DNA of 64,000 bases from contig JAFXPY010000001.1 in the NCBI GenBank assembly GCA_017527495.1, positions 1 to 64,000 on the forward strand. Direction: 5' to 3'. Under the pieces are notes generated by a model, which saw nothing but the letters and a program-made list of their open reading frames with translations, searched no databases and was not told where the DNA came from. Source of the DNA: Paludibacteraceae bacterium. GTDB taxonomy: Bacteria; Bacteroidota; Bacteroidia; Bacteroidales; Paludibacteraceae. This document shows, piece after piece, positions 20,062 to 60,490 of this stretch (position 1 is its first letter; every line of letters begins with the position of its first letter). Position numbers and translations under genes: made by a program.

Positions 20062-20487
20062 ATGTCCTCTGTTTCATATCCCGGAATAAAATCAGTCGGC
20101 TACATATTCGCCGACCATATACCAGCCAACAGTGTTTACAATGCAGTTGCCGGTATAGATATTAACTTGTTTGTAAAACCCACTCCCATTTGCATTATTG
20201 CTGATGCAACTTGCGAAGTTGACGAAAGCAACGAGAGCAATGGTATTGCTCAATCCGTTACGCTTTCTTTCCGTTCAACCTCCGAACTCCCAAGACACCG
20301 CCCCCTTGCCTTTGTCATCGAAGATGTCAACGGCAACACCTTTCTGCTCGGTCAACCGGAACGACCTCATCTTGCTGTTGCACGCACACGGCAGACCGGC
20401 ACACCTTCAGGTGAGTCTGCTGTAATCTCTTACGAGGTTACGCAGACAGCCCCAATAGCCCTCAAACCTTGCAAAATGATAATATAA
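20062..20487 (+). CDS. Hypothetical phage protein, 141 aa, probably structural
   Basis: Begins MSSVSYPGIKSVGYIFADHI and is beta-rich throughout, as in small virion or tail-associated proteins. The ATG at 20062 is preferred because upstream codons overlap the previous gene. The terminator overlaps its stop codon. Confidence 0.6.
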   Translation: MSSVSYPGIKSVGYIFADHIPANSVYNAVAGIDINLFVKPTPICIIADATCEVDESNESNGIAQSVTLSFRSTSELPRHRPLAFVIEDVNGNTFLLGQPERPHLAVARTRQTGTPSGESAVISYEVTQTAPIALKPCKMII

Positions 20488-20516
20488 AAAAACGCTCCCA
20501 AGCGAGAGCGTTTTTA
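20486..20516. terminator. Bidirectional terminator between structural gene and Abi gene
   Basis: AAAAACGCTC pairs with GAGCGTTTTT around an 8-nt loop. A- and T-tracts on either side allow termination of both the plus-strand gene and the convergent Abi_2 gene. Confidence 0.85.
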
Positions 20517-20517
20517 T

Positions 20518-21468
20518 TTATTTTTGCCAAACAGGTAATCGTTTCCAATTGTCAGGAAATCCCATCTCTTTGAGAGATAGCAGGCGATGATTATCAGCAA
20601 GCAAATGTAAAAGATTGTTTTTGAAATTGTTGTCAGGACTAATAATATCAACGATATATTTCAGTGCCGTCAACAAAGCAAAAAGTTTGTTTTGCTTAAT
20701 ATCCACAGCATCAGCCTTTGACATAAAGGAATATGTTGTGTTGTACGGCATTTTTATGTGAACCATAAAACGCCTATTCCAAATACGACTATGATGAGCG
20801 CAGCAGTTTCTTAAACCAGAGAAAGCATGAAGCCAGTTTGCGAACAATTCAACATTTGCGATTCCGAAAGCGTTTGCAATGGCTTTCTTCTCATTACTTG
20901 TTTTAAGCAACTTATATAAACGGCTCAATGTGCCAAAAGAGATAACCTCCATCGTCATCCATGATGGTGGCATATCAGGCTCATTGTATTTGTTGTAATA
21001 GTGCTTGATGAAATCTTCATTGCTTCTATCTACATCGCCAACAATGTCATCGGATATATCGTCAAATAAAGTATCTCCATCCATTTGAATTGCAAATGCG
21101 GCACTATCATATAAAGATTTATCTTCATACCAATGACTATCACCTGTACTTTCACTATAAATCTGCGATAGTTTGGTGCGCACTGCTACTTCAACTTTTT
21201 CCAACTCATTAAATATAAGTGAGCGCAATCGGCGGTCAAACACATACAAGTCTATAATATCCTGAAACGTAATATCATCACGCATGAAGTGGTGGTCAGA
21301 ATCAGGGTCAACATTGTTCTGATAAGGATATGTATAAGCACGTAAGCGATAATAACTTATATTTCCAAGATATTTGGCAGCAAGTTGCTTGTCATCGAAA
21401 TTCAAACCTCTTGCCTCTAACTTTGCTATTTGCTCGGCAATAGAAATAGGGTGCTTTTGATATTTCAT
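20518..21468 (-). CDS. Abi_2-family (AbiD/AbiF-like) phage-resistance protein
   Basis: The 316-aa protein matches Abi_2 landmarks: PISIAEQIAKLEARGL, YLGNISYYRLRAYTYPYQ, DIIDLYVFDRRLRSLIFNELEKVEVAVRTKL, and LRNCCAHHSRIWNRRF. The last carries an R-x4-6-H-like motif (LRNCCAHH) typical of HEPN-type RNases. Such proteins abort infection by other phages. It is transcribed against the phage genes from its own promoter, through a structured 5' RNA, in the first gap between virion operons. Confidence 0.88.
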   Translation of the reverse strand: MKYQKHPISIAEQIAKLEARGLNFDDKQLAAKYLGNISYYRLRAYTYPYQNNVDPDSDHHFMRDDITFQDIIDLYVFDRRLRSLIFNELEKVEVAVRTKLSQIYSESTGDSHWYEDKSLYDSAAFAIQMDGDTLFDDISDDIVGDVDRSNEDFIKHYYNKYNEPDMPPSWMTMEVISFGTLSRLYKLLKTSNEKKAIANAFGIANVELFANWLHAFSGLRNCCAHHSRIWNRRFMVHIKMPYNTTYSFMSKADAVDIKQNKLFALLTALKYIVDIISPDNNFKNNLLHLLADNHRLLSLKEMGFPDNWKRLPVWQK

Positions 21469-21502
21469 AACATCTTAAGTTATAAGAAGATGGGGTATAG
21501 AT

Positions 21503-21562
21503 ACTCGAAGACCTCCCCGGGTGCGCTGTTCCAATGAGAAGCGTGGGAGGTCATATCGAGTG
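21503..21562 (-). ncRNA. Structured RNA at the 5' end of the Abi_2 transcript
   Basis: The transcript begins with ACTCGA and GACCTCC, which pair with GGAGGTC and TCGAGT about 45 nt later around a GC-rich core. A CCCC further downstream could pair with the GGGG run. The 5' end lies at the expected start of the promoter at 21563-21594. I recall that structured RNAs have been described beside Abi_2/AbiF-type genes, but could not check that here. Confidence 0.6.
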
Positions 21563-21594
21563 CAAAAGTACAACTTTTTTTCTAATTATCCAAA
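21563..21594 (-). promoter_or_regulatory. Promoter for the Abi_2 gene and its RNA
   Basis: On the minus strand: TTTG, exactly 20 nt, TACTTTTG. It is divergent from the phage late promoter at 21632. Confidence 0.8.
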
Positions 21595-21631
21595 TAATTC
21601 TTACTTTTTTCGCAATTTTATTGAAAAAGCA

Positions 21632-21666
21632 GTCTTTTACTCCCCTTATATAAGGTCGTACTTTTG
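21632..21666 (+). promoter_or_regulatory. Late promoter 1 (capsid operon), GTCTTTT type
   Basis: GTCTTTT (21632-21638), 20-nt spacer, TACTTTTG (21659-21666). It belongs to a seven-member family with invariant spacing. Confidence 0.75.
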
Positions 21667-21708
21667 CGTTGTAATCACTTACAACTATGAAGTACGACCT
21701 TTATTTGC
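21652..21708 (+). terminator. Hairpin overlapping late promoter 1 and the protease start
   Basis: AAGGTCGTACTT (21652-21663, contains the -7 box) pairs with AAGTACGACCTT (21690-21701, codons 2-5). An inner GTTGTAA/TTACAAC stem lies within, and a T-rich tail follows. Confidence 0.6.
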
Positions 21709-22772
21709 GCGGTTATGTTGGCGGAGCCGATTTTGACTCTGACCTCGTTTCGCGTACCCTCACCAAATACAAAGACCGCCCTGTAACAGTCCTCATTGAC
21801 TCACTCGGCGGCTCACTCGCTACCGCGCTTTCTATCGCTGCCGCCTTCCGTGAGCATGGCGATGTTACCGCACATTTCGTTGGTATGAACGCAAGTGCGG
21901 CGACTATTGCGTCAATGGGTGCAAATAGCATCACCATTGATGAGTGTGCCATGTACCTCGTTCACAAATGTTCGGCAGAGTTCTTCCAATGGGCATCATT
22001 CAATGCCGACCAACTCCAAGACCAGATAGACCAACTCACGCAACTGAAAAGCGACCTTGAGAAAATGGATCTCAATGTCGCGCAGATGTATGCTCGTAAG
22101 TGCAAGAAGCCGGTCGCTGACCTGCTTGCACTGATGAAGACAGGCGGTTGGCTCACTGCCAATGAAGCATGGCAGTGGGGCTTCGTTGATTGTCTGACCG
22201 ACAACCACGAAGACGCTGTGCCGGTACTCACCGAAGACCTTGCAGCCTCTATGCAAGCCAACGGACTGCCATTGCCTAATATGGAAATCAAAGCCACACC
22301 AACGCCTACCGGCTTTCATAAACTCGTTGAGATGCTTTCCAACTTCTTCCAACGCAAACCCGAAACCAACGCACAACCCGACAGCGAAGCCACAGCCCAA
22401 GAACCAACACAGCACACCAACCAACTAACAGATACAGATATGACTAAACTATTACCATTGCTTGCCACGGCACTCGCCTTGCAAGCGCAGGAGTTCACCT
22501 TGAAAGATGACCACCTGCAACTCACCGCAGAACAGGCAGACACACTCGAAGCCTACATCAAAGACCTCTCTGACAAACTCACTGCAGAGCAGACCGCCAA
22601 CAAGACAGCACAAGACCGCATCAAGGCTCTTGAAAAGCAACTCGCTGACAAACCGGCTGACGAAACCGTACAGGTCATCAACCAACCGGCACAGTCCTCT
22701 GCCCTCTCTGCTGAAGCAGAGTTTGTTGCTAACCTGAAAAAGGCACAAGAACTCTTCGACAGCCTGCCATAA
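21687..22772 (+). CDS. ClpP-related head maturation protease, 361 aa
   Basis: The first ~190 residues form a ClpP/S49-type serine protease domain: VTVLIDSLGGSLATALSIAA, VGMNASAATIASMGA with the likely nucleophile Ser, and MYLVHKCS with the likely His. Residues ~215-361 are Gln/Ala-rich with an extended coiled coil (LSDKLTAEQTANKTAQDRIK), resembling a scaffold domain fused to the protease, as in HK97-like prohead systems. It precedes the major capsid gene. The start lies within the promoter-1 hairpin. Confidence 0.87.
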   Translation: MKYDLYLRGYVGGADFDSDLVSRTLTKYKDRPVTVLIDSLGGSLATALSIAAAFREHGDVTAHFVGMNASAATIASMGANSITIDECAMYLVHKCSAEFFQWASFNADQLQDQIDQLTQLKSDLEKMDLNVAQMYARKCKKPVADLLALMKTGGWLTANEAWQWGFVDCLTDNHEDAVPVLTEDLAASMQANGLPLPNMEIKATPTPTGFHKLVEMLSNFFQRKPETNAQPDSEATAQEPTQHTNQLTDTDMTKLLPLLATALALQAQEFTLKDDHLQLTAEQADTLEAYIKDLSDKLTAEQTANKTAQDRIKALEKQLADKPADETVQVINQPAQSSALSAEAEFVANLKKAQELFDSLP

Positions 22773-26301: not shown

Positions 26302-26532
26302 ATGCAAGCCGTTCACATCAACACAATGCGCGAAATGTTGGACCACCCCGAGCCGGTGGACATTTCGCTTGTAACCTCGAAAGGTGAAGTGCAGCACTAT
26401 GAAAATTGTATTTCGCTGCGCTACAATTTCCGTGCAGGCACTCGCACAATCAAACTCCTCGCGTCCGGACAGATCCGCCAAGTCCGTGATGTCTGCATCA
26501 TCCAAATCAACGAAATGGAAGTTTTTTTGTAG
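26302..26532 (+). CDS. Small hypothetical protein, 76 aa
   Basis: Starting at the ATG at 26302 it encodes MQAVHINTMREMLDHPEPVD and a beta-rich remainder (SLVTSKGEVQHYENCISLRY). It is the last gene of the capsid operon before the restriction cassette. Similar to small virion-associated proteins but not recognised. Confidence 0.5.
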   Translation: MQAVHINTMREMLDHPEPVDISLVTSKGEVQHYENCISLRYNFRAGTRTIKLLASGQIRQVRDVCIIQINEMEVFL

Positions 26533-26539
26533 TACAAAT

Positions 26540-26570
26540 TTTGGAAAACGAGATATTTTTTGTAATTTTG
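26540..26570 (+). promoter_or_regulatory. Promoter for the DNA methyltransferase
   Basis: TTTG, 19-nt spacer, TAATTTTG. Host-type -33 box, 8 bp before the methyltransferase ATG. Confidence 0.75.
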
Positions 26571-26578
26571 CAACTATT

Positions 26579-27658
26579 ATGAATACTATACATAAAATTA
26601 TACTTTCAGCTGCACAAAACATGTCAAATGTCACTGATAATTCAGTGAATTTAGTAGTAACTTCTCCACCATATCCTATGATAGAAATGTGGGATGATGT
26701 CATGGGGAACCAAAATTCACAGATAAAAGAACAATTAAAAACCAATCCGCAAAAAGCCTTTGAACTAATGCATAGTGAATTAGATAAAGTTTGGGAAGAG
26801 TGTTTTCGAGTGTTAGAATACGGAAGTTTTCTATGTATAAATATCGGTGACGCAACACGTTCAATTAATGGAAGTTTTGAACTTTATAATAATAGCTCAC
26901 GCATAGTTAGTGCATGCAAGAAAATTGGATTTGTCAATTTGCCAAATGTGTTATGGAGAAAGCAAACTAATTCACCAAATAAGTTTATGGGGAGTGGTAT
27001 GCTTCCAAATGGTGCTTATGTAACACTTGAGCATGAGTGGATACTAATTTTTAGAAAGGGTGGTAAAAGAGTTTACACAAAAGAAGAAGATAAAAAGATA
27101 CGTCGCAGTAGCTCTTTTTTTTGGGAAGAGCGTAATGTTTGGTTTTCTGACTTATGGGAGGTAAAAGGAACAAAGCAACTCATCGGAGATTCAGAAACAA
27201 GAGAAAGAAACGCCTCTTATCCTTTTGAAATTCCATATCGTCTAATAAATATGTATTCTCAAAAGGGTGATGTGGTTTTAGACCCATTTTTGGGTTTAGG
27301 TACGACAACTTTGGCGGCAATAATATTACAAAGGAATAGTATAGGATACGAAATTGATACAAAGCTATCAAAAGCAATAACTGCTAACATTAAAAGGTTT
27401 TATCAGGCACAACCTAATCAAATTTTGCAAAAGCGGTTGAAAATGCACATGCATTTTATTCATGAAAGAAAAGAATCCAATAAAGAAGTGAAATATTTTA
27501 ATAATAATATTCAATGTCCAGTAATGACTAATCAAGAAACGGATATCTCATTTGAAAATCTTAATACTCTCAAGATAGAAGAAAAAACTAATTCGATAGA
27601 AATATTATGCGAGTTTGCAGAAAAAAGCATTATCTATCAACCTACAACATTGCTCTAA
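26579..27658 (+). CDS. DNA methyltransferase, beta-class (probably N4-cytosine)
   Basis: 359 aa with circularly permuted order: catalytic motif IV VVTSPPYPM near residue 28, then motif I DPFLGLGTTTLAAI near residue 238 with NSIGYEID after it. The T/SPPY form is usual for N4-cytosine enzymes of the beta class. The N-terminal start at 26579 follows the promoter directly. It is convergent with, and overlaps by 17 bp, two endonuclease-like genes. It protects host and phage DNA from the cassette's nuclease. Confidence 0.88.
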   Translation: MNTIHKIILSAAQNMSNVTDNSVNLVVTSPPYPMIEMWDDVMGNQNSQIKEQLKTNPQKAFELMHSELDKVWEECFRVLEYGSFLCINIGDATRSINGSFELYNNSSRIVSACKKIGFVNLPNVLWRKQTNSPNKFMGSGMLPNGAYVTLEHEWILIFRKGGKRVYTKEEDKKIRRSSSFFWEERNVWFSDLWEVKGTKQLIGDSETRERNASYPFEIPYRLINMYSQKGDVVLDPFLGLGTTTLAAIILQRNSIGYEIDTKLSKAITANIKRFYQAQPNQILQKRLKMHMHFIHERKESNKEVKYFNNNIQCPVMTNQETDISFENLNTLKIEEKTNSIEILCEFAEKSIIYQPTTLL

Positions 27659-28397
27659 TTTGTGATAATATATCACTATTGTAAATTTCACCTTTGGTAC
27701 TTGATATTATTGTAAATACTGGTACGCCAAAAGTGTTTTTATATTCGGCATATTTCCTCGCATTTGCATATTTAGCTCGCTGTAAATAAGGAGTATTAGA
27801 CAGATATGTTTTAGGTTTTATTTGAATACCACACATAAGATTGCTGCTTTTGTACAATTCGTAATCAACTGCAAAATTATGGTCAATCTCACCATCTGTT
27901 TTAGATATTATCAATGTCGGGAAAATTTGTTGTAATGTTTCTATCGTATTCCGTTCTCTTAATATTATGCCGTTCCAAGTTTCGCAAATAGTTCTATAAC
28001 GCACACACTCAAAACACTCATCTACACTTAATCCAAAGCCATTGTTCTTAATGTGACTATATAAGTCTTGCGCTTTTATCATTAAATCACTTGGAGTTCG
28101 ACCATACTGATAGTTGATATTTTTCAATTCCCAACTTAATCTATAAATATCGCTTTTATGATTTCTTATTAATGTATAATCATCCAAAAGTGCAACATTC
28201 GCCCCTAACAAAGTACGCCTTTTTTGACCGCTTTTATAATAAAAATTCTCCCATTCTTCTTTACATTTCCAATCCTGCAATTCTATAAGTGTAGATACAT
28301 ACCCCACTGACCATGGGTCATTAAGCATTAATTCGTTCCACATTGAATTTGTAGAGCGAAATTTGTCAGGGTCAATGATTAATTGAAAAGAATCCAT
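27642..28397 (-). CDS. Putative PD-(D/E)XK endonuclease of the R-M cassette, 251 aa
   Basis: Late in the protein, IDHNFAVDYELYKSSN followed by MCGIQIKPKTY gives a D...QxK arrangement like the PD-(D/E)XK nuclease core. I do not recognise a named family. It overlaps the upstream MjaI-like gene by 1 nt (TAATG), so both are translated from one message. It may be a second nuclease or a specificity subunit. Confidence 0.55.
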   Translation of the reverse strand: MDSFQLIIDPDKFRSTNSMWNELMLNDPWSVGYVSTLIELQDWKCKEEWENFYYKSGQKRRTLLGANVALLDDYTLIRNHKSDIYRLSWELKNINYQYGRTPSDLMIKAQDLYSHIKNNGFGLSVDECFECVRYRTICETWNGIILRERNTIETLQQIFPTLIISKTDGEIDHNFAVDYELYKSSNLMCGIQIKPKTYLSNTPYLQRAKYANARKYAEYKNTFGVPVFTIISSTKGEIYNSDILSQIRAML

Positions 28398-28990
28398 TAT
28401 TTTTGAAAGTCTTTAGGGTTATACTCAATAACAATACCATCCTTCTTTTTGTCATAGTAAACGATAGGTACAGTGATTACTTCACTCAAATGTTCCTCCA
28501 ACTTGTAAGTTGTGGATTTTACTTGAATAGGAGTTTCGCCAATAAAACCATCTATTCCTTTTCCTTCCTCCTCAATGTTAGCGAGCCGATACGTTTTTTG
28601 CAAAGAATTAGCAATATAGGCTATAATACATTCTTGAAATTTAAGCCCACAATAGGTTTTAGTATAAACCAAATCTTTCACCCAATTTTCAATGAGTGTT
28701 TTATCTATTTTCTCAAACGCTTCACGCATTTTTAGAAACATAACATAAATTTTGTTTGTTGCATCCATAATAGCGTTCGGCTGCTTTTGGCTATACCAAG
28801 CAATCCACTCTTCCAAAGTAGAGCCGTTAAACTCTTGGATAAGTTCTGACATTTGCCCAACAACATTAGGCCGAGTTCCTTGTGCATTACTATTAACAAG
28901 ATTAATAATTTGTGTCGTATACTTCGGGAAATCATACTGGGTGGCTCTTGACAATTGTTCCACCTCTGCTACAGAAATTTTCTTTTTCAT
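28397..28990 (-). CDS. MjaI-family type II restriction endonuclease
   Basis: 197 aa from the ATG at 28990 (MKKKISVAEVEQLSRATQYD). The block DFPKYTTQIINLVNSNAQGT, RPNVVGQMSELIQEF and the nuclease-like KGIDGFIGETPIQVKSTTY (D...QxK) match my memory of the MjaI/RE_MjaI family, whose founder cuts CTAG. The CTAG specificity here is an inference; the partner N4C-type methyltransferase is consistent. Transcribed from 29272 through a ~240-nt structured leader. Confidence 0.72.
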   Translation of the reverse strand: MKKKISVAEVEQLSRATQYDFPKYTTQIINLVNSNAQGTRPNVVGQMSELIQEFNGSTLEEWIAWYSQKQPNAIMDATNKIYVMFLKMREAFEKIDKTLIENWVKDLVYTKTYCGLKFQECIIAYIANSLQKTYRLANIEEEGKGIDGFIGETPIQVKSTTYKLEEHLSEVITVPIVYYDKKKDGIVIEYNPKDFQK

Positions 28991-29087
28991 ATTCAGTTCC
29001 AAAAAGAAAATCGCTTGCTCAAAAAAACAAGCAATTTTATGTTATTCTTGTTCTTTTTTTAAAAAAAGAACACAAGGAACTGAGGTA

Positions 29088-29314: not shown

Positions 29315-29346
29315 CATTGTAAACTTGCAAAGATATGGAGTTTTTT
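29302..29346 (+). terminator. Hairpin plus T6 overlapping late promoter 2 and the portal start codon
   Basis: CTCCATATCTTTGCA (29302-29316, including the -7 box) pairs perfectly with TGCAAAGATATGGAG (29326-29340, containing the ATG). Six Ts follow as codons 3-4 of the portal gene. Confidence 0.65.
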
Positions 29347-30654
29347 AGTTTTCAACCCTCAATAGAACTCTTGCCGAACGGAAAAACGGCTGTTGCTTTC
29401 GTGCCGGACAGCAGCACCGTTTTCCGGGAAGACACGCGCCTCGATGTGCGCACACTGCCCAACGGAATGAAATTCATACCGTGGGGAGCAGATAATCTCA
29501 TGCCCTACAACATCATCTCCAAAATCGAAGATGATGAAACGCTCGCCACCTGTCAGCAGTTTAATGCCGAAGTCTGCTACGGTGCCGGACTGCGTTATAA
29601 TGCCGACCAATGCACACCGCAGGTCAAAGACGACATTGACGAGTTCTTTATGAATAACGACCTCGCCACTTATTTCCTCGGCGTATGTCAAGACCTCAAG
29701 TATTTTGCCTTTGCTGTAACCGTCATTATCTTCAATAAAGACGGCAGCAAAGTAGTGCGCCTTGTCCGCAAAGAAGCCTGCAACTGTCGTTTCGCACCTG
29801 CCGACAAACGCGGCTCAGTCCCTGCGGTACTCTTCGCCGATTGGCGCAACTACAACCTGCCCGACACTGTCGAGCGTATTCCACTGCTCAACACCGTTTC
29901 GCCGTGGGTTGATCTGCAAGACCGCCTCAAACAGCACACCAAAGACCGCAAGTTTGCTATCCTCACACGCATACCAACCCCCGACTATTGTTATTATCCA
30001 ATCCCTTATTATGCCGCTCTTTTCAAAAGCAAGTGGTATGACATCAAGCGTCTTATTGCCATTGCCAAAGAAGCGAAACTGCGCAACTCCGCACCCATCA
30101 AATATCAGATAGAGATAGCCTCGAAGTATTGGGAAACTATCTTCCGAGCCGAAGGTATCACCGACCGCACCAAAATGCAAGACCGTGCCAACAAGGAAAA
30201 GCAGCGTATCATTGATTTCCTCACTGGAGCCGAAAATGCAGGCAAAGTGTGGTTCTCCACTTTCTATATTTCGCCGGACGGCAAGGAACAGCACGATGTG
30301 GTCATCAACAAGATAGACAACGACAAGGAAGGTGGCGATTGGGAAACGGACATTCAAGAAGCCGTCAATATGGTCTGTTTCACTATGCGCGTACACAGTA
30401 ACCTTGTCGGCAGTGTGCCGGGCAAAGCGCAGTCGAACAACAGCGGCAGCGACAAACGCGAACTCTACACCATAGCGCAGGCACTGCAGAAGCCCTACCA
30501 CGACATGCTTTTCCGCCCGCACCAAATCATCATCCGTCAAAACAAGTGGCTCAGCGCATACCCTGAAACGCCCTTCGTCATGCTCACCACTCTCGACCAA
30601 CATCAAGATGCCAAACAAATAAATCCGGAAGACCATGCTGATACAAAACGATGA
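29335..30654 (+). CDS. Phage portal protein, 439 aa
   Basis: The N-terminal region (MKFIPWGADNLMPYNIISKI, QQFNAEVCYGAGLRYN) and the rest of the 439 residues follow the portal pattern of Bacteroidales phages, in which the dodecameric portal forms the DNA entry vertex. It is followed, with a 20-bp overlap, by a second gene in the operon. Its start codon is inside the late-promoter hairpin. Note that portal and terminase are in separate operons, unlike the usual adjacent order. Confidence 0.72.
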   Translation: MEFFSFQPSIELLPNGKTAVAFVPDSSTVFREDTRLDVRTLPNGMKFIPWGADNLMPYNIISKIEDDETLATCQQFNAEVCYGAGLRYNADQCTPQVKDDIDEFFMNNDLATYFLGVCQDLKYFAFAVTVIIFNKDGSKVVRLVRKEACNCRFAPADKRGSVPAVLFADWRNYNLPDTVERIPLLNTVSPWVDLQDRLKQHTKDRKFAILTRIPTPDYCYYPIPYYAALFKSKWYDIKRLIAIAKEAKLRNSAPIKYQIEIASKYWETIFRAEGITDRTKMQDRANKEKQRIIDFLTGAENAGKVWFSTFYISPDGKEQHDVVINKIDNDKEGGDWETDIQEAVNMVCFTMRVHSNLVGSVPGKAQSNNSGSDKRELYTIAQALQKPYHDMLFRPHQIIIRQNKWLSAYPETPFVMLTTLDQHQDAKQINPEDHADTKR

Positions 30655-37131: not shown

Positions 37132-37395
37132 ATGATACAACAATTTAAGATAGAGAACTTGCAAGATGTAGAGAAATTCTTGCGTTATGTGATTGAGCCG
37201 CAAGGGCTGTCAATCGGTATGTGCTTTCATCCGGATGACGATTTTGGCGACTACATTAAGGAAAATGGAGAGCGTGCTTTCTCTGGTGAAGACGCAGCAA
37301 CGCTCAATAAGTATATAAACGATTGTTTCATTGTATGTGAGCAGAGCAATGCTGACATATATGAACTTGCACTCCAATATGTAAAGGCGGCGTAA
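37132..37395 (+). CDS. Hypothetical protein coupled to methyltransferase, 87 aa
   Basis: Sequence MIQQFKIENLQDVEKFLRYV with GMCFHPDDDFGDYI, of a type common on Bacteroidales mobile elements. It overlaps the first C5-methyltransferase by 1 nt (TAATG), so it is part of the operon. It may be a regulator of the restriction system; not recognised. Confidence 0.65.
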   Translation: MIQQFKIENLQDVEKFLRYVIEPQGLSIGMCFHPDDDFGDYIKENGERAFSGEDAATLNKYINDCFIVCEQSNADIYELALQYVKAA

Positions 37396-38627
37396 TGATT
37401 AGATTAGGAACATTATTTAGCGGAATTGGCGCTATCGAACAAGCACTTTTACGGTTGGGAGTTGAACACCGAATTGTATTTGCTTGTGATAATGGAGAGA
37501 TAGAATTGAAACTACTTGACAACGATTTGCAGGTAGAATTTGATAGATTAAGTAAAATTGCAAGTTATAGAAAAACTGAGGAAGAAAAACGCCGTTTGCA
37601 AGAATTAACGGAAAGGGAACAAGAAATAATAGAGACAACAGCTGCATATATAGCTCAATTACCAACCATTCAAGAAAAGAATGATTATGTAAAAAGTTTA
37701 TATGAGCAACATAGCAAGGGACATAATTACGTTAAAGATACCTATCTCGCAAACTATAAGATAAATCCGCAAGACTTTCATCTTGATGTTCACTTCCTAG
37801 ATGGTACTGATTATGCGAATCAAGTGGATTTTATGGTTGGTGGTAGCCCCTGTCAATCGTTCTCCAGTAATGGGAAACGAGGAGGATTTGCGGATACTCG
37901 TGGGACACTTTTTCACGATTACGCGCGAATCATTTCAGAGGTGCGTCCTAAGTGTTTTATATTTGAGAATGTCCGTGGAATGCTTGTCCACGATAATGGA
38001 AAAACATGGAGGGTAATCAAAAATACTTTTAAGGAACTCGAATACAACATATATCTTAATAAAGATAAGAATGGGCAAGAATCACCACTCTTAAATGCCT
38101 GCGATTATGGCATCCCACAGCAAAGAGAACGGATCTTCTTGGTCGGAATTAGGAACGACTTTGCATTAACTGAAGACTTTTCATTCCCTGCACCTGAAAA
38201 ACTTACAAAAACCAATCGTGATTTTTTAGACGAGGTAGTACCGGCAAAATACTATCTCGGTCAGAAAGGCTTCGAATTTGTTACATCAAGCCCTACAAGA
38301 GCTCAAGTCGGACGAACTATCCAAAAGTGCCAAAAAGCCAATCAGCAGTTTAATTGGAATGGTGATTTTATTTTTGAGCCGTTAGACCCAGTTCGCCACA
38401 ATCAAGAAATACTCGATAGGGCTTTTGTTGGCATTTGGAATAATCAGAGAGGTGTCATAAGGCAGTATACCCCCAGAGAATGTCTACGGCTAATGGGATT
38501 TCCTGATACTTTTGTAATGCCTCATGGTGATACAATAATGTGGAGGCAAAGTGGTAATTCCATTGTTGTTGATGTGTTGATGAAAATTGTGAATCAGTTG
38601 ATTAAAACTGGAATTTTTAATGATTAG
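37395..38627 (+). CDS. DNA cytosine-5 methyltransferase 1 (LlaJI-type)
   Basis: 410 aa with the ordered C5 motifs: I TLFSGIGAIEQALLRLG, IV catalytic GGSPCQSFSSNG, VI IFENVRGM, VIII QQRERIF, X WRQSGNSIVVDVL. An insertion of charged helices lies between motifs I and IV. Paired with a second C5-MTase and McrBC-like genes, as in the LlaJI system, where each MTase modifies one strand of an asymmetric site. Overlaps the next gene by 8 bp. Confidence 0.93.
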   Translation: MIRLGTLFSGIGAIEQALLRLGVEHRIVFACDNGEIELKLLDNDLQVEFDRLSKIASYRKTEEEKRRLQELTEREQEIIETTAAYIAQLPTIQEKNDYVKSLYEQHSKGHNYVKDTYLANYKINPQDFHLDVHFLDGTDYANQVDFMVGGSPCQSFSSNGKRGGFADTRGTLFHDYARIISEVRPKCFIFENVRGMLVHDNGKTWRVIKNTFKELEYNIYLNKDKNGQESPLLNACDYGIPQQRERIFLVGIRNDFALTEDFSFPAPEKLTKTNRDFLDEVVPAKYYLGQKGFEFVTSSPTRAQVGRTIQKCQKANQQFNWNGDFIFEPLDPVRHNQEILDRAFVGIWNNQRGVIRQYTPRECLRLMGFPDTFVMPHGDTIMWRQSGNSIVVDVLMKIVNQLIKTGIFND

Positions 38628-39873
38628 ATTAGCTACTATATTTTCAGGCATCGGCTCTATAGAACAAACTCTATTGAGATTAGGCATCGAGCATGAAATA
38701 GTGTTCGCTTGTGATAATGGTGATGTAGAGATAAATCTATTAGAGGGTGATGACCTTCTCGATTACAAGAGGCTGACGAAACTTCGCAGTAAGAAGCAAC
38801 TATCATTGGAAAATGATGTCAAAAGATTGGCTCAATTAAGTGCTAAAGAAAACTCTCTTGCAGAGGGGATAAGAGAAACGGTTAGAAATCTCGCAAATAA
38901 GAATGAGAAAAGAAAATTTGTAGAAGAGTTATACAAGAAACACGGGAAAGGGCACAACTTTGTTAAAGAGGCATATTTGGCAAACTATAGAGTCAGTGAG
39001 TCCGATTTCCATTTGGACGTGCGCTTTTTTGATGGTCGAGATTACCGCCAATCAGGAGAAATTGATTTATTAGTTGGTGGCAGCCCATGTCAGGCATTTT
39101 CTGCTGTCGGAGCTAAATATGGATTGGACGACACGAGAGGCACTTTGTTTTATGAGTTTGCAAGGATTGTTCAAGAAACTCAACCTCGCGTTTTTATATA
39201 CGAAAATGTTAGAGGTTTGTTAACTCATGACGATGGGCACACATGGGAAGTCATGAAAGGGGTATTCCATAGCTTGAATTATCGAATTGCCGAACCACAA
39301 ATTCTCAATGCTTCTGACTATGGAATACCTCAAAGTCGTAGACGCGTTTTCGTAGTCGGAATAAGGGACGATATTCGTTGTGCTGATTTTCAATACCCCA
39401 AGCCAGTGGAATTGCGATATACCATGCAAGACTTCTTGGAAGATAATTGTGCTTATGGTCACTTTACCTACAGCAAAAAAACTGGCGAATTAATTATAGA
39501 ACGAGTGCCTGGCAAACCTGATAAAAAATTCACATTAACGCCCGCAGTTCAGAAGTATGTATTAGCAGGAGGCACAGCAAACTACCACACATCACAAGAG
39601 ACTGATTTGCCCATTGCAAGGACGCTAATGAAAATGATGACACAACATCATCGTGCAGGAGTTGATAATTATATTACTGTCAAAAAGAGTCCGCTTGTTT
39701 TAAGACAGTTATCTGATAGGGAGGCTTTGCGTTTGATGGGTTATCCTGATAGTTTTAAGATAGCAGTATCTTCTATGCAGACATTACGTCAAGCTGGAAA
39801 TTCAATTGTGGTTGACGTAATGATGGCAGTGGTTAAAGAAATTTTTAATACTGGAGTATATGGCAGAATTTAA
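38620..39873 (+). CDS. DNA cytosine-5 methyltransferase 2 (LlaJI-type)
   Basis: 417 aa, a clear paralogue of the upstream enzyme: TIFSGIGSIEQTLLRLGIEH, GGSPCQAFSAVG, IYENVRGLLTHDDGHTW, QSRRRVFVVGI, LRQAGNSIVVDVM. It probably methylates the other strand of the same asymmetric target. Translationally coupled at both ends (8-bp and 14-bp overlaps). Confidence 0.93.
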   Translation: MIRLATIFSGIGSIEQTLLRLGIEHEIVFACDNGDVEINLLEGDDLLDYKRLTKLRSKKQLSLENDVKRLAQLSAKENSLAEGIRETVRNLANKNEKRKFVEELYKKHGKGHNFVKEAYLANYRVSESDFHLDVRFFDGRDYRQSGEIDLLVGGSPCQAFSAVGAKYGLDDTRGTLFYEFARIVQETQPRVFIYENVRGLLTHDDGHTWEVMKGVFHSLNYRIAEPQILNASDYGIPQSRRRVFVVGIRDDIRCADFQYPKPVELRYTMQDFLEDNCAYGHFTYSKKTGELIIERVPGKPDKKFTLTPAVQKYVLAGGTANYHTSQETDLPIARTLMKMMTQHHRAGVDNYITVKKSPLVLRQLSDREALRLMGYPDSFKIAVSSMQTLRQAGNSIVVDVMMAVVKEIFNTGVYGRI

Positions 39874-41716
39874 GTCTGAAAAGAAAGGCTCTAACATCAT
39901 TTGTCGCGTGTCTAATGCCACGCCAGAAATGGTTTGTCGCTATGTGCAACGATTACCAAAGCACAAAATGAGCGAAGAAGCCTTTCGTGATTACATGGGA
40001 CCTAAGTGGTTCCAAAATGAGCATCAAGCCCCGGAACAATGGGGTCTCTATTATATTGATGGAGAGTATTACTATCCTCGATTTAATAGAGACATTACTA
40101 TTGAGGAGGCTGAACGTTATCTCTATGGTTGGATAAAAAGGCTCATTGTCATCAATCCTTATACTCGCTTCAAGGTGACGAATGACAATAGACTTGTTGA
40201 GTCCATTGTTAAACAGCTTGAAATAAATCCTGATGAGCATAATCTAAGGAATATAATTAGTAATGTTATAAATTCAGATGAGCCTTTTGTCTTAAATGAA
40301 ATACTTGCTAATGCTATCAATAATTATTCCGAGGTTTTGAGAGTAGATTATGATAGAGACAATGAAATTTTTTATGCATATCTATTGCCTAACTACAAAG
40401 AAATTATTAAAACAAAATACAATATGACAAAGAAAGAATACTTTGATTCGTTCAACGACATCAACACTTCCGCTCCTCTCAAGGAGCCTAACCAAGTCAT
40501 ATATTTCGGTGCGCCGGGTACGGGTAAGAGCCACACAGTGAAGGGTTACACTAAAGACCTTCCGGAAGGAAACGTGTTCCGTACTACTTTCCACCCCGAT
40601 AGCGACTATTCAACTTTCGTGGGTAGCTACAAACCCTCAATGAGACCGGCTGCCTCCAAGCAAACGATTCTTGATTATGACAGCCTTGTCGATAAGTTCA
40701 AAGACTACTTGTCTGCCGACAGCAACATCACACGCGCTTGCACCAAGTTCGGCTTTGACTACCACGATAGCATTGTCAAGATGCAAGAGAATAACGCTCA
40801 TACCATTCCAGTTCTTGTTGCTGACGCATACAAGTCCGGCACGACCTATGACACGCAAGTTCGTTCTGGAATGAGCGTTTATGAAACATCGTACAAGGAA
40901 ACCGGGAACGATGAAAAGATTATCTATTCTTTCATTCCGCAAGCTTTCACTAAAGCATATATTCGTGCATGGCAGACCGACCAACCTGTGTTTCTCGTGA
41001 TTGAGGAAATCAATCGCGGAAACTGCGCTCAAATCTTCGGTGATTTGTTCCAATTGCTCGACCGCAAGAACAATATCTCGGAATATCCCATCAAGCCGGA
41101 CACCGACCTCGGCTCATATATCCATAGTATGTTTAAGAAAAACGGCTGTGCCGCTCCGGAAGATTCTGCTATCTACAAAGGCGAGGAGCTTTGCTTACCG
41201 GCAAACCTCTATATCTGGGCAACGATGAACACTTCTGATCAATCGCTGTTCCCGATTGATAGTGCCTTCAAACGCCGTTGGGAGTGGCGATATATCAAGA
41301 TAGCCAAGCCGACTGACAAGGAAACGGGCAAGCCGTTTGAGTGGCATATCGAGGGCGGCACCGACTGGTGGCTGTTCCTCAAACAAATCAATCGTATCAT
41401 CAACAAGATGACCAACTCCGCCGACAAACAACTGGGCTATTTCTTCGCCAAGGCAGACGCTGCCGGAGAAATCAAGTACGATAGATTTGTTGCCAAAGTA
41501 TGTTTCTATCTCTGGAACGACATCTTCAAGACCTACGCCATGGACGATGTGGAAACGGACTTGTTCAAGTTCACCTATGACGAGGACGGACAAACGAAGA
41601 CAGGCAAACTCAACTTTACGGAGTTTTTCGATGAGAACGGCAAAGTAGTGCCGGACATCGTAAAGCAGTTCATCGAGAACGTGATGAAGTGGAACGATAA
41701 CACCAAGCAGGAGTAA
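39860..41716 (+). CDS. McrB-like AAA+ ATPase/GTPase, restriction subunit R1 (LlaJI-type)
   Basis: 618 aa. The N-terminal ~200 residues are a variable DNA-binding region. The AAA+ domain has Walker A VIYFGAPGTGKSHTV near 215, the McrB-type Walker B FLVIEEINRGNCAQIFGDLF near 385, and sensor-1 MNTSDQSLFPIDSAFKRRW, the McrB family signature. In LlaJI, R1 supplies nucleotide-driven translocation for R2. The N-terminal part is AT-richer than the rest. Confidence 0.92.
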   Translation: MAEFKSEKKGSNIICRVSNATPEMVCRYVQRLPKHKMSEEAFRDYMGPKWFQNEHQAPEQWGLYYIDGEYYYPRFNRDITIEEAERYLYGWIKRLIVINPYTRFKVTNDNRLVESIVKQLEINPDEHNLRNIISNVINSDEPFVLNEILANAINNYSEVLRVDYDRDNEIFYAYLLPNYKEIIKTKYNMTKKEYFDSFNDINTSAPLKEPNQVIYFGAPGTGKSHTVKGYTKDLPEGNVFRTTFHPDSDYSTFVGSYKPSMRPAASKQTILDYDSLVDKFKDYLSADSNITRACTKFGFDYHDSIVKMQENNAHTIPVLVADAYKSGTTYDTQVRSGMSVYETSYKETGNDEKIIYSFIPQAFTKAYIRAWQTDQPVFLVIEEINRGNCAQIFGDLFQLLDRKNNISEYPIKPDTDLGSYIHSMFKKNGCAAPEDSAIYKGEELCLPANLYIWATMNTSDQSLFPIDSAFKRRWEWRYIKIAKPTDKETGKPFEWHIEGGTDWWLFLKQINRIINKMTNSADKQLGYFFAKADAAGEIKYDRFVAKVCFYLWNDIFKTYAMDDVETDLFKFTYDEDGQTKTGKLNFTEFFDENGKVVPDIVKQFIENVMKWNDNTKQE

Positions 41717-41719
41717 ACG

Positions 41720-43939
41720 ATGTATATCATCTTCGAGGAACATCAGTACGAAGCCGATACCGTCAAAGATGTACTTCGCGGTATCAGCGAGTTGCAGGAT
41801 GTTGACAAGATGGTCAGCGTCAGCTATGTCGGCTATTACTATGAGCCACATATCCATGATTGTGTGTTTATTCTGCCCAAGGTGCTGCTCAATGAGCAAG
41901 ACCAACTTGTCATCGGCAACGGCGTGACGCTTGACCCAGCCAAGGTCATCACGCCCAAAGGGCAGGAGAAGAACCTCACGCCAGAGTACCGCAAGTTCCT
42001 CTATGAGTTTGCCGTATGGATATACCGCACGATAGCCGTCTATCATCAGCAAAACAGCAAGTCGCAGGCTATCTACTACCGCCGCTTGCCCCAATCGGGA
42101 ACAGGCTCGCGCCACAAGGCAAACACCTACCTTGATATAATCCTCTCGCTCATCCAATTCAACAACGAGAACCAAGATTTCTTCCTCTATGTAGTGAAGA
42201 ACATCCACTCCGGTTTCAACAAAATCAATTGGACGCGCACCATCAGCAGCACACCGGCACACTTGCAGGACAATGTGCCGCTGTACCTCAACCCGGTCAA
42301 TAGGAAACGGCAAATCAATTTCGATGAGGAGCTGTTTATCATATTCTTCTCTATCCTCAACTATATCAATGAGGAATACGGTTTCCGCACGCCCATCAGC
42401 CTGCAATATGAGTTGCTGACCAAAGCGCAGTTCGAGATATACCGCCGTGGGTACGGACGGACACGCTTGCGTGAGATACGCTATAAGTATTTCTCCGACA
42501 AGACACTGCTCCTTTGGGACTTGTGCTATGCTTTCTTCGACAGCAACTATCAGTTGGCAGTCAATACCGACAACAAGGAGTATCTGCTTGCCAAGAAATA
42601 CAACATCATCTTCGAGGCGATGATTGATGAACTCATCGGCACGCCGCACAAGGATATACCCAAAGGACTAGCAGAGCAGGACGATGAGAAACGGGTGGAT
42701 CATCTTTACACCGACCTCGCCCTTACCTCGTCCGAGACGGAGAAACGCGAGGTATATTACATTGGTGATAGCAAATACTACAAGATGTCCACCAACCTCG
42801 GCAAATCGTCTATTGCCAAGCAATACACCTATGCCCGCAATGTCATTCAGTGGAACATCGACATGTGGAAGGACACCGCCGAGGGCAGACGCTCGTACAG
42901 CGAAACGCCTGAAGAGTTCCGCCGTGTACGCTTGCGCCCCGATAGTGCCACAGAGGGCTACGACATCATCCCGAACTTCTTCCTGTCGGCAGACGTGGAC
43001 GAGCAGAGACGATACAACCGGGGAACGGATGCCGAGGGACACGACCTCAATATCCATCCGCGCATAGAGAACGGAGAGGAAAAGACCTTTGTGCAAAGTC
43101 ATTTCGACAACCGGCTATTCGACCGCGACTCGTTGTTGCTCTTGTACTACGATGTCAATTTCTTGTTCATCGTGCGCATGTACGCTCGCAACAACGTTGC
43201 CGAAAAAGCCGAATGGAAAGCCAAAGTGCGTAAGATATTCCGCAAGAAGATTCAGAAAGTACTTGCCGACAAGTACCATTTCTATGCCCTTGCGCCCAAA
43301 CCGCAGACCTATGCCGAAGGCTATATGCAGGACAATCTCAAATCGCTCATCGGAAAGGTCTATCAGCCCTTCGACAATCCGGAAATGTACGTGCTTGCGC
43401 TTGATAATGAAGACCCCCAACACGACAACGCAGAGATCTTGCAGACCCTTGGCGAACATTTCTTCATCACCGAGCAAGGCGCATACACGATAGGTCAAGA
43501 CCCCACCGCCCAACTGCAAGCACTTGGCTACACGCAAGGAGCAGATGAGCCAGTCGAGGCAGACGAATACATATTGCTTTCCACCATTGACACGAAAGCC
43601 AACCATGATACAAAAGCATTGCTTGATGGTACAGCCGCGACTTTTATATCCGGGTATCGCCCAAGCGACCGAGTGGATCTGCAATCTATCAAATACGTAG
43701 GTGTAATATCCAACCACAAAGTGCTTGGCGCATATCAAGTGCGCTCAATCAATGTCGCGTACATTGAGAATGCTTTCCGTCTAAAGTTCAACTTAGGTGA
43801 GTATCGCTTATTCAAGCAACCTATCATCTACGGATTGGATAAGTATGCCACTCCGGGCGTTGCTCTCAATGTCGAGCAACTTGCCGACCGCGCTGACTTC
43901 AACCCAAGATCAAAACGCTTTACTGCATTTTTTAAGTAA
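41720..43939 (+). CDS. LlaJI-family restriction nuclease subunit R2
   Basis: 739 aa, 3 bp after R1. Residues ~270-400 hold the LlaJI nuclease region: KYNIIFEAMIDELIG, DDEKRVDHLYTDLAL and VYYIGDSKYYK, giving the PD-(D/E)XK motif D...DSK, then SIAKQYTYARNVIQWN. It is longer than the LlaJI.R2 I know of (about 450 aa). The extra C-terminal ~300 residues include a segment (STIDTKANHDTKALLDGTAA) that may be an EVE/SRA-like or unrelated domain. Confidence 0.85.
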   Translation: MYIIFEEHQYEADTVKDVLRGISELQDVDKMVSVSYVGYYYEPHIHDCVFILPKVLLNEQDQLVIGNGVTLDPAKVITPKGQEKNLTPEYRKFLYEFAVWIYRTIAVYHQQNSKSQAIYYRRLPQSGTGSRHKANTYLDIILSLIQFNNENQDFFLYVVKNIHSGFNKINWTRTISSTPAHLQDNVPLYLNPVNRKRQINFDEELFIIFFSILNYINEEYGFRTPISLQYELLTKAQFEIYRRGYGRTRLREIRYKYFSDKTLLLWDLCYAFFDSNYQLAVNTDNKEYLLAKKYNIIFEAMIDELIGTPHKDIPKGLAEQDDEKRVDHLYTDLALTSSETEKREVYYIGDSKYYKMSTNLGKSSIAKQYTYARNVIQWNIDMWKDTAEGRRSYSETPEEFRRVRLRPDSATEGYDIIPNFFLSADVDEQRRYNRGTDAEGHDLNIHPRIENGEEKTFVQSHFDNRLFDRDSLLLLYYDVNFLFIVRMYARNNVAEKAEWKAKVRKIFRKKIQKVLADKYHFYALAPKPQTYAEGYMQDNLKSLIGKVYQPFDNPEMYVLALDNEDPQHDNAEILQTLGEHFFITEQGAYTIGQDPTAQLQALGYTQGADEPVEADEYILLSTIDTKANHDTKALLDGTAATFISGYRPSDRVDLQSIKYVGVISNHKVLGAYQVRSINVAYIENAFRLKFNLGEYRLFKQPIIYGLDKYATPGVALNVEQLADRADFNPRSKRFTAFFK

Positions 43940-58910: not shown

Positions 58911-60254
58911 TCAGAATCCGGGTGCAAGCTCGTTGAGTCTCTTGAATAATTCAGGGTCTGCGTGATTTGCATATCTTGTGGTCATACTCAAATCATGGTG
59001 GTCAGCCGCTTGCATAACCGACAATGGGTCAAGACCAGCACGGAGCATACTATTTATGCCGGTATCACGCAAAGAGTACAACTGCATTTCACTTGGCAAC
59101 CCCAAATCAGTTCTCATCCTGTCCCAAGCACTTGAGAAGGTGTGAGAGTTCATGGGTTTCTTTCCACAACGCCATGAGCCGTCTGCAATGAGATAATCAT
59201 CCGGCTCTGCATCTTTAATGTACTCTTTGAATATAGGCAAGATGTTTGGAGAAATACGGCATATACGATTCTTATGATTCTTCGTCTTGTCTCCCGGCAT
59301 TGTTATAGTGCCATGCTCAATATCTATATATTTTATTTGTATGCGACTGATTTCAATAGGGCGGAGCAGGGTTGAATAAGTCATATCACAAATAATCATC
59401 ATTGCCGGATTCTTTTCCTTGAAATAATCCGCAATCTTCGCTCTTACATCTTGTGGTATCAAGATACGCTGCTTTTCTTCCTCACGCTTAACCTTAATCT
59501 TTGCAAACGGATTTTCAGTAGCATAACAATTACTTACCGCCCACGAGAACACGGCACGCCCTTGCTTTAAGTTATTATTATATGTGCGAGGACAAACAGT
59601 GCCATTGTCGCTCAACTTAGCCTTTGCATGAGGACGACTATTACCACCCCTGAATACATATTCCATATATTCAAGAGCATACTCTTGTGCAAACTCCGAA
59701 GCAGTGATGTTAGGATATTTCTCTTTAACCCACGCTTTGAAATTAACGCAGAAGCTATTATAACTATATAATGTACTCTTGCGCAATTCAAGTGATTTTT
59801 CTTCAATAAATTTGTCAATCACTTTGACAAGCGGTTCGTCAGCACGAGTTTTCTTCTTTGGTTTTTGAGGTACAGGTTGTATTCCGACCTTTGGTTGAGT
59901 CGGAACAATAGGAGTATTAACCGGCATTTGCGGAACACCAATCATAGGTGCTGCCATCACCTGTTGAGCAGTTCCTAAAGATGTGGAAACAATAAACGAT
60001 GTACCGCCAAAAGGCGACCAACCCATCGACAACTTTGAGTTAATAGAATAGCACAACTGACCCGTCCACACTCTGAACTCTGTCATTGTGCGGAATTTCT
60101 TGCGGTACTTGTTAAGACGGTACTTAACGCGCTCGCGCTTTTGAGATAGAGGATTGTAGGAGTAGAACTCCACGAACCAGCCTGCAAGATTATGTCTAAT
60201 GACAGCAGGCAGGTAACTTTGAGAAGGGCAGGTTTGGAGGAAATCGACTGACAT
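58911..60254 (-). CDS. int: Tyrosine-type site-specific integrase
   Basis: 447 aa with a SAM-like core-binding domain (residues ~150-260) and a catalytic domain showing TLLRPIEISRI (first Arg), YSLRDTGINSML (second Arg), and ADHHDLSMTTRYANH (His and nucleophilic Tyr). It catalyses integration at tRNA-Pro. It ends 16 bp past the last tail gene, convergent with it, and starts ~160 bp from attR, the classic location. Confidence 0.95.
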   Translation of the reverse strand: MSVDFLQTCPSQSYLPAVIRHNLAGWFVEFYSYNPLSQKRERVKYRLNKYRKKFRTMTEFRVWTGQLCYSINSKLSMGWSPFGGTSFIVSTSLGTAQQVMAAPMIGVPQMPVNTPIVPTQPKVGIQPVPQKPKKKTRADEPLVKVIDKFIEEKSLELRKSTLYSYNSFCVNFKAWVKEKYPNITASEFAQEYALEYMEYVFRGGNSRPHAKAKLSDNGTVCPRTYNNNLKQGRAVFSWAVSNCYATENPFAKIKVKREEEKQRILIPQDVRAKIADYFKEKNPAMMIICDMTYSTLLRPIEISRIQIKYIDIEHGTITMPGDKTKNHKNRICRISPNILPIFKEYIKDAEPDDYLIADGSWRCGKKPMNSHTFSSAWDRMRTDLGLPSEMQLYSLRDTGINSMLRAGLDPLSVMQAADHHDLSMTTRYANHADPELFKRLNELAPGF

Positions 60255-60260
60255 AAAAAT

Positions 60261-60305
60261 TTTTTTTCTCTGCCAATAACCTAATGATCATTGACAGAGA
60301 AAAAA
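60261..60305. terminator. Hairpin between integrase and tRNA-Pro
   Basis: TTTTTCTCTG pairs with CAGAGAAAAA around a ~22-nt loop, with T- and A-runs on either side. It can terminate tRNA transcripts that now run into the prophage. Confidence 0.6.
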
Positions 60306-60333
60306 TCAAATTCGCAATGTAACCTCAAAAATT

Positions 60334-60353
60334 TTCGGTACAAAACGGGTACA
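60334..60353 (+). promoter_or_regulatory. Candidate integrase arm-type sites (right)
   Basis: TTCGGTACAAAA and ACGGGTACA sit back to back, matching TTCGGGTACAAA at 10592 near the left end. Confidence 0.4.
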
Positions 60354-60415
60354 TTTTTCAGCACTCTCGTTTTTTGCGATTTTCTTCTATTTACAATCGG
60401 CTGATTTTCAGCCCT

Positions 60416-60444
60416 TGTCGAGAAGAGGCGACTCGAACGCCCGA
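60416..60444 (+). repeat. attR, 29-bp tRNA-Pro 3'-end repeat
   Basis: Identical to 10478-10506 and contained in the tRNA gene; the copy here restores the tRNA 3' end. Confidence 0.95.
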
Positions 60445-60490
60445 CCCCCACGTCCCGAACGTGGTGCGCTACCAACTGCGCTACTTCTCG
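60418..60490 (-). tRNA. tRNA-Pro (anticodon CGG)
   Basis: Cloverleaf: acceptor CGAGAAG/CTTCTCG, D stem GCGC, anticodon stem CCACG/CGTGG with loop TTCGGGA (anticodon CGG), T arm with TTCGAGT, discriminator A. CCA is not encoded, as often in Bacteroidota. The gene is intact; its 3' part is prophage-derived. Confidence 0.95.

Follow-up and report, generated by a model that had tools for sequence, protein, structure and literature searches.

A prophage-borne abiF gene with a conserved abiF-type leader RNA in a Paludibacteraceae bacterium, and related RNAs in phages lacking Abi_2

Known AbiF systems and the Paludibacteraceae protein

AbiF from C. difficile is toxic, and the RNA RCd22 binds AbiF and represses it both in cis and in trans (PMC12373285). 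This action requires the RCd22 stem but not the stem sequence, and RCd22 also lowers abiF expression through early termination (PMC12373285). PbAbiF from a Prevotellaceae bacterium (PDB ID 8VZ6; Zilberzwige-Tal et al. 2025) is likewise neutralized by an abiF-type RNA, as reported in two articles (PMC12373285, PMC12737573). A review reports that each PbAbiF monomer has one RNA, that the protein is a single-stranded RNase and that bulge nucleotides inhibit it (PMC12737573). According to one proposal, Cas13 descends from AbiF, and crRNA from the RNA partner of AbiF (PMC12737573).

We analyzed a 64,000-nucleotide stretch of a Paludibacteraceae genome (positions 1–64,000 of contig JAFXPY010000001.1, assembly GCA_017527495.1), hereafter the window, which contains an intact abiF gene (20518–21468, minus strand). 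The encoded 316-residue protein covers the complete Pfam model Abi_2 (PF07751, positions 1–184 of 184; E-value 5.5e-59, 200 bits compared with a cut-off of 25.6). The R-polar-xxx-H HEPN RNase motif, which is found in 60 of 60 relatives, reads R220-N-C-C-A-H225 in the window protein. PbAbiF bound to its ncRNA is the only relative of solved structure (sequence E-value 2.6e-53). When we searched with a structure model of the window protein (pLDDT 75.9), Foldseek returned 8vz6_A as the only significant fold match (E-value 2.9e-17, TM-score 0.79–0.83). Arg-220 and His-225 align with PbAbiF Arg-210 and His-215, and the R210A+H215A mutant of PbAbiF is reported to be inactive (PMC12373285). The two proteins thus have family, fold and the catalytic arginine and histidine in common, but compared at the protein level they share only ∼34% identity over the structural alignment. 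By its sequence, the window protein is a full-length Abi_2/AbiF HEPN RNase with predicted activity.

ToxIN, too, encodes an RNA antitoxin directly upstream of an RNase toxin, and its toxin ToxN is to our knowledge not a HEPN protein. ToxI consists of tandem pseudoknot repeats (PMC12373285), whereas the window RNA is present in a single copy. The AbiF–RCd22 pair of the C. difficile prophage phi027 resembles our locus in that a prophage Abi_2 HEPN toxin has an RNA directly upstream and shares one promoter with it (PMC12373285). RCd22, however, carries the abiF motif twice and has a terminator ahead of its gene, whereas we find one motif and no clear terminator in the window.

A conserved structured RNA upstream of abiF

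A sequence-only reading of this locus had claimed a minus-strand promoter, a ∼60-nt fold and a gene start ∼35 nt further on. Indeed, a promoter of the Bacteroidota type, TTTG-N20-TACTTTTG, is located at 21594–21563 on the minus strand, just 5′ of the structured RNA, and puts the predicted RNA 5′ end near position 21561. Such sites occur 15 times in the window compared with 1.4 expected and therefore represent the ordinary promoter type of this genome; a TAnnTTTG box is kept 9–11 nt 5′ of the stem in nearly all Bacteroidota relatives. The structured RNA itself extends over 21499–21561 (minus strand), and the ATG of abiF follows 34 nt after the outer stem and 41 nt after helix P1. A hairpin with a T-run 3′ of abiF (20486–20513, minus strand) is the probable terminator of the cassette.

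The leader folds over 61 nt with −26.1 kcal/mol (z-score −4.5), and none of 200 shuffled sequences folds equally well. We gathered homologous genes from public genomes and compared the upstream DNA of each. The element is found at nearly all Bacteroidota and related loci, where a CAAUA/CAACA-like leader precedes a helix P1 of six to eight pairs; a one-nucleotide bulge separates P1 from P2, which is capped by an apical loop, and on the 3′ side come a bulge of about six nucleotides, the second strand of P1 and usually a U-run. A run of at least four T directly 3′ of the stem is present in 41 of 49 relatives; in the window we could not find such a run, and hence no intrinsic terminator between RNA and abiF.

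In an alignment of 11 diverged members (A2), P1 is formed by GACCTCCC (21545–21552) and GGGAGGTC (21517–21510), with changes on both sides in 4 of its 8 pairs. All four P2 pairs between CGCT (21540–21543) and AGCG (21527–21524) are 100% paired (all minus strand). None of 500 shuffles attains the A2 covariation score of 0.279, slid versions remain at or below 0.084, and RNAalifold recovers P1 and P2 without structure input. The structured leader upstream of abiF is thus real. The outer stem ACTCGA/TCGAGT of the earlier reading fared less well than the fold and the inner stem: complete in the window, it is 70% paired across relatives, with one pair failing in 8 of 11 sequences, and because of this partial conservation we rejected it as a defining element. 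What is kept near the outer stem is the CAAUA/CAACA-like leader and, in many relatives, UUCG after the stem. We also discarded the suggested CCCC–GGGG pseudoknot, as the window alone, of 11 loci checked, has the CCCC (0 of 10 relatives) and the GGGG is mostly taken up by P1.

At normal cut-offs, an Rfam scan of the window returned only a tRNA and did not report the abiF RNA family RF03085 (cut-off 37 bits). A relaxed scan aligned the full RF03085 model (1–37) to 21511–21550 with no broken pair and with 28.9 bits, a score for which we file the window RNA as a divergent relative rather than as a member by Rfam's line. STnc370, Phe_leader and other weak matches were below cut-off and rejected. 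Window RNA and RF03085 share an outer helix of six pairs, a one-nucleotide bulge, a short inner helix, a six-nucleotide 3′ bulge and the position upstream of Abi_2; they differ in the four-pair CGCT/AGCG inner helix and in the bulge sequence, which is CACCCG (21518–21523, minus strand) and not of the CAAAUC type. Going by the layout of the Rfam model, the CACCCG bulge is possibly the counterpart of the single-stranded bulge that is reported to inhibit PbAbiF.

In the window's genome, a covariance model built from A2 (R1) hits the window RNA only (79.2 bits); across 250 genomes of the window's family it detects 58 copies, spread over 43 genomes. For 36 of these 58 RNAs, an abi gene or gene fragment lies 7–108 nt downstream. 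RF03085 finds 43 RNAs in the same 250 genomes and gives no hit in that of the window; a large Bacteroidota subclass of abiF RNA escapes the Rfam model. Among 54 full-length abi genes in these genomes, 30 have an R1 RNA and 16 more an RF03085 RNA. Leaving out two genes at contig ends and one with masked sequence, 46 of 51 assessable genes (∼90%) carry either RNA upstream, and neither is recognizable in the remaining five. The RNA subtypes, labeled by sequence pattern with a few pattern errors (e.g. L063, L048, L050), cluster on the Abi_2 protein tree (12 changes compared with 35.3 in shuffles). The sequence-only reading had named an alignment upstream of other Abi_2 genes as its check and a missing fold there as its refutation; since the fold is conserved across Bacteroidota and relatives, covaries and tracks the Abi_2 protein tree, that comparison did not refute it.

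Some loci have an additional RNA copy just 3′ of abi and in the same orientation, both of the R1 type (L014, L015, L018) and of the RF03085 type (G106:C71, G130:C32). Two DUF805 RNAs (RF03081; L021:1198–1262 and 2264–2327) accompany an Abi_2 gene located at the edge of a contig.

Prophage setting and proposed function of the cassette

The neighbors of abiF are phage head genes, including a head maturation protease (21687–22772) and a weak match to a portal protein (29335–30654), and an integrase-like gene adjoins a tRNA (58911–60490). A phage contig with ∼70–80% DNA identity (L092) contains both genes that flank the abi cassette, with no abi between them. The cassette (20486–21640, edges approximate, minus strand) has its own promoter and 3′ hairpin/T-run and is positioned antisense between phage genes; given the empty site in L092, we classify it as a phage moron. 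PHROG 2158 belongs to the moron category. As read from the sequence only, the same prophage also holds a tandem pair of cytosine methyltransferase-like genes with McrB- and McrC-like genes after them (37395–43939), and the window a DNA methyltransferase-like gene with two convergent restriction-partner-like/helper-like genes (26384–29002).

With an intact HEPN gene of matching fold, a promoter, a covarying RNA that co-evolves with the protein and a moron insertion, the locus very likely represents a self-contained AbiF toxin–antitoxin module carried by the prophage. The single promoter would give rise to a transcript that starts with one abiF-type RNA and runs on into abiF. AbiF, a HEPN ribonuclease and predicted dimer, would be toxic when free, as are its characterized relatives, and the leader RNA, cut from the message or ending before abiF, would bind and inactivate it. 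As there is no U-run after the window stem, free RNA may arise by leader cutting rather than by termination, and AbiF is said to process its own RNA in the review (PMC12737573). A disturbance of the cell, for example infection by another phage, could upset the balance of RNA and protein and free the RNase, growth would stop, and the prophage would be protected.

The leader RNA is probably the antitoxin of AbiF, as judged from its conserved relatives and from the two published systems. This role had been proposed in the sequence-only reading, and it is supported by conservation, covariation, an Rfam family of the same architecture and published AbiF-binding RNAs. The locus was also correctly taken for a Bacteroidota representative, which is not new since PbAbiF already is one. 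Counting against the module are the single RNA copy, where type III systems usually have repeats (although PbAbiF, too, works with one RNA per monomer), the lack of an intrinsic terminator between the window RNA and abiF, an Rfam score below cut-off and the five family abi genes with neither RNA.

The RNA could instead be purely a cis-acting leader or attenuator of abiF, governing its transcription or translation and having no antitoxin role in trans. Its place in the 5′ leader, the T-runs just past the stem in most relatives and the early termination caused by RCd22 are all compatible with such a role. The window stem has no U-run, however, C. difficile RCd22 acts in trans (PMC12373285), and the toxin-less RNA copies described below retain conserved, covarying pairs with no abi gene to regulate, so that we regard control solely in cis as unlikely. 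That the RNA serves AbiF as a Cas13-like cofactor or guide rather than as an inhibitor would fit the proposed ancestry of Cas13 and crRNA (PMC12737573). Yet the RNA is conserved throughout and has no variable spacer-like segment, and the biochemistry reported for PbAbiF and C. difficile AbiF is inhibition by RNA; we consider this role very improbable. One fold alone can arise by chance, but the z-score, the compensatory changes in 11 diverged relatives, a covariation score unmatched by shuffles and the presence of the RNA upstream of ∼90% of the assessable family abi genes leave next to no probability for a functionless hairpin, which is already refuted by conservation. Taken together, the window system is a further example of the already known anti-virus AbiF toxin/RNA antitoxin module.

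abiF-type RNAs in the absence of Abi_2

No abi gene directly follows 22 of the 58 R1 RNAs. Of these, one lies at a contig end, three are second copies located just after an abi gene, several are accompanied by abi remnants (L081, L084, L086, L090), and for about 12 there is no sign of abi; in two of the latter the stem or promoter is damaged (L078, L082). Ten solitary RNAs have intact helices and neither abi gene nor remnant (L072, L073, L076, L080, L083, L085, L087–L089, L091), and several of these keep an intact promoter. We rejected a new, non-Abi gene partner because the genes that follow the RNA vary between loci.

Pattern scans of IMG/VR located 19 contigs with abiF-type RNAs, only three of which hold any Abi_2, although five are near-copies of one phage (L098–L100, L103, L104) and fragments cannot prove Abi_2 absence. 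Named phages provide a cleaner test, since complete records could be searched with RF03085 and PF07751. RF03085 is above cut-off (40.5–58 bits) in Thibault, Acj61, PZL-Ah8, S-SZBM1, S-CREM1, CGphi29, Bromden, CRP-143, T7-Ah and Lolly9, and PF07751 was not found in the complete records of these ten phages. Arthrobacter phage Mimi scores just below cut-off (33 bits). Phages with the RNA and without Abi_2 include T7-like, T4-like, cyano-, myco- and Arthrobacter phages (named phages L112–L121 and L123–L131; IMG/VR contigs L094, L096–L104 and L106–L111). A BLAST search with the window RNA in named phages and plasmids gave no match. A match in BcepSauron is inside a coding gene, has no Rfam support and was not counted.

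In S-SZBM1, S-CREM1, Bromden, Lolly9 and Mimi the RNA is found within about 4–12 nt of a tRNA gene, and in uncultivated phages it follows tRNA-Thr, -Met, -Asn or -Pro. A rough product of chances for this adjacency is ∼1e-14, a guide only, as it uses assumed tRNA numbers and cases picked after the fact. Three uncultivated contigs (L107:3170–3260, L109, L110) contain a tRNA, then an abiF core and then a conserved tail, AAATGGTTGTAGTGTGGCRGACTACG, and this tailed RNA is perhaps a larger structured RNA. Nine phage RNAs are 96.3% paired, and none of 500 shuffles matches their covariation score. Between two T7-like phages with 95% identity at the locus, P1 shows a compensatory change from C-G to A-U, and their RNA is located 3′ of an apparent phage RNA polymerase promoter. 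Covariation, compensatory change and promoter point to a function without the toxin.

We lean toward the view that abiF-type RNAs without Abi_2 in several unrelated phage groups are antitoxin RNA mimics that block AbiF during infection and that tRNA-rich phages release from tRNA transcripts by processing; the solitary Bacteroidota copies would serve the same purpose or anti-addiction. This would apply to T7-like Aeromonas phages, T4-like Acj61, the cyanophages S-CREM1 and S-SZBM1, Omegavirus and Vilmaviridae mycobacteriophages, Arthrobacter phage Mimi and uncultivated phages. Not all phages with the RNA are lytic, as mycobacteriophages of cluster J are temperate (PMC3706429). The nearest precedent is the pseudo-ToxI RNA of phage PhiTE, an antitoxin mimic (PMC3475682). 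The authors of the S-CREM1 study reported its abiF RNA and, in the accessible part of their article, made no link to AbiF (PMC9964418). Our literature search returned no paper proposing anti-AbiF RNAs; others may exist outside the literature searched.

The locus adds a prophage-borne example to the AbiF toxin/RNA antitoxin modules, a kind proposed as the ancestor of Cas13. The phage RNAs are more novel than the locus itself and are the part that may surprise the specialist. If our reading of them is true, the toxin-less copies would represent a widespread natural RNA counter-defense against AbiF, which could be tested at once with laboratory phages, and would account for some of the RNA that lies without annotation between tRNA genes of phages.
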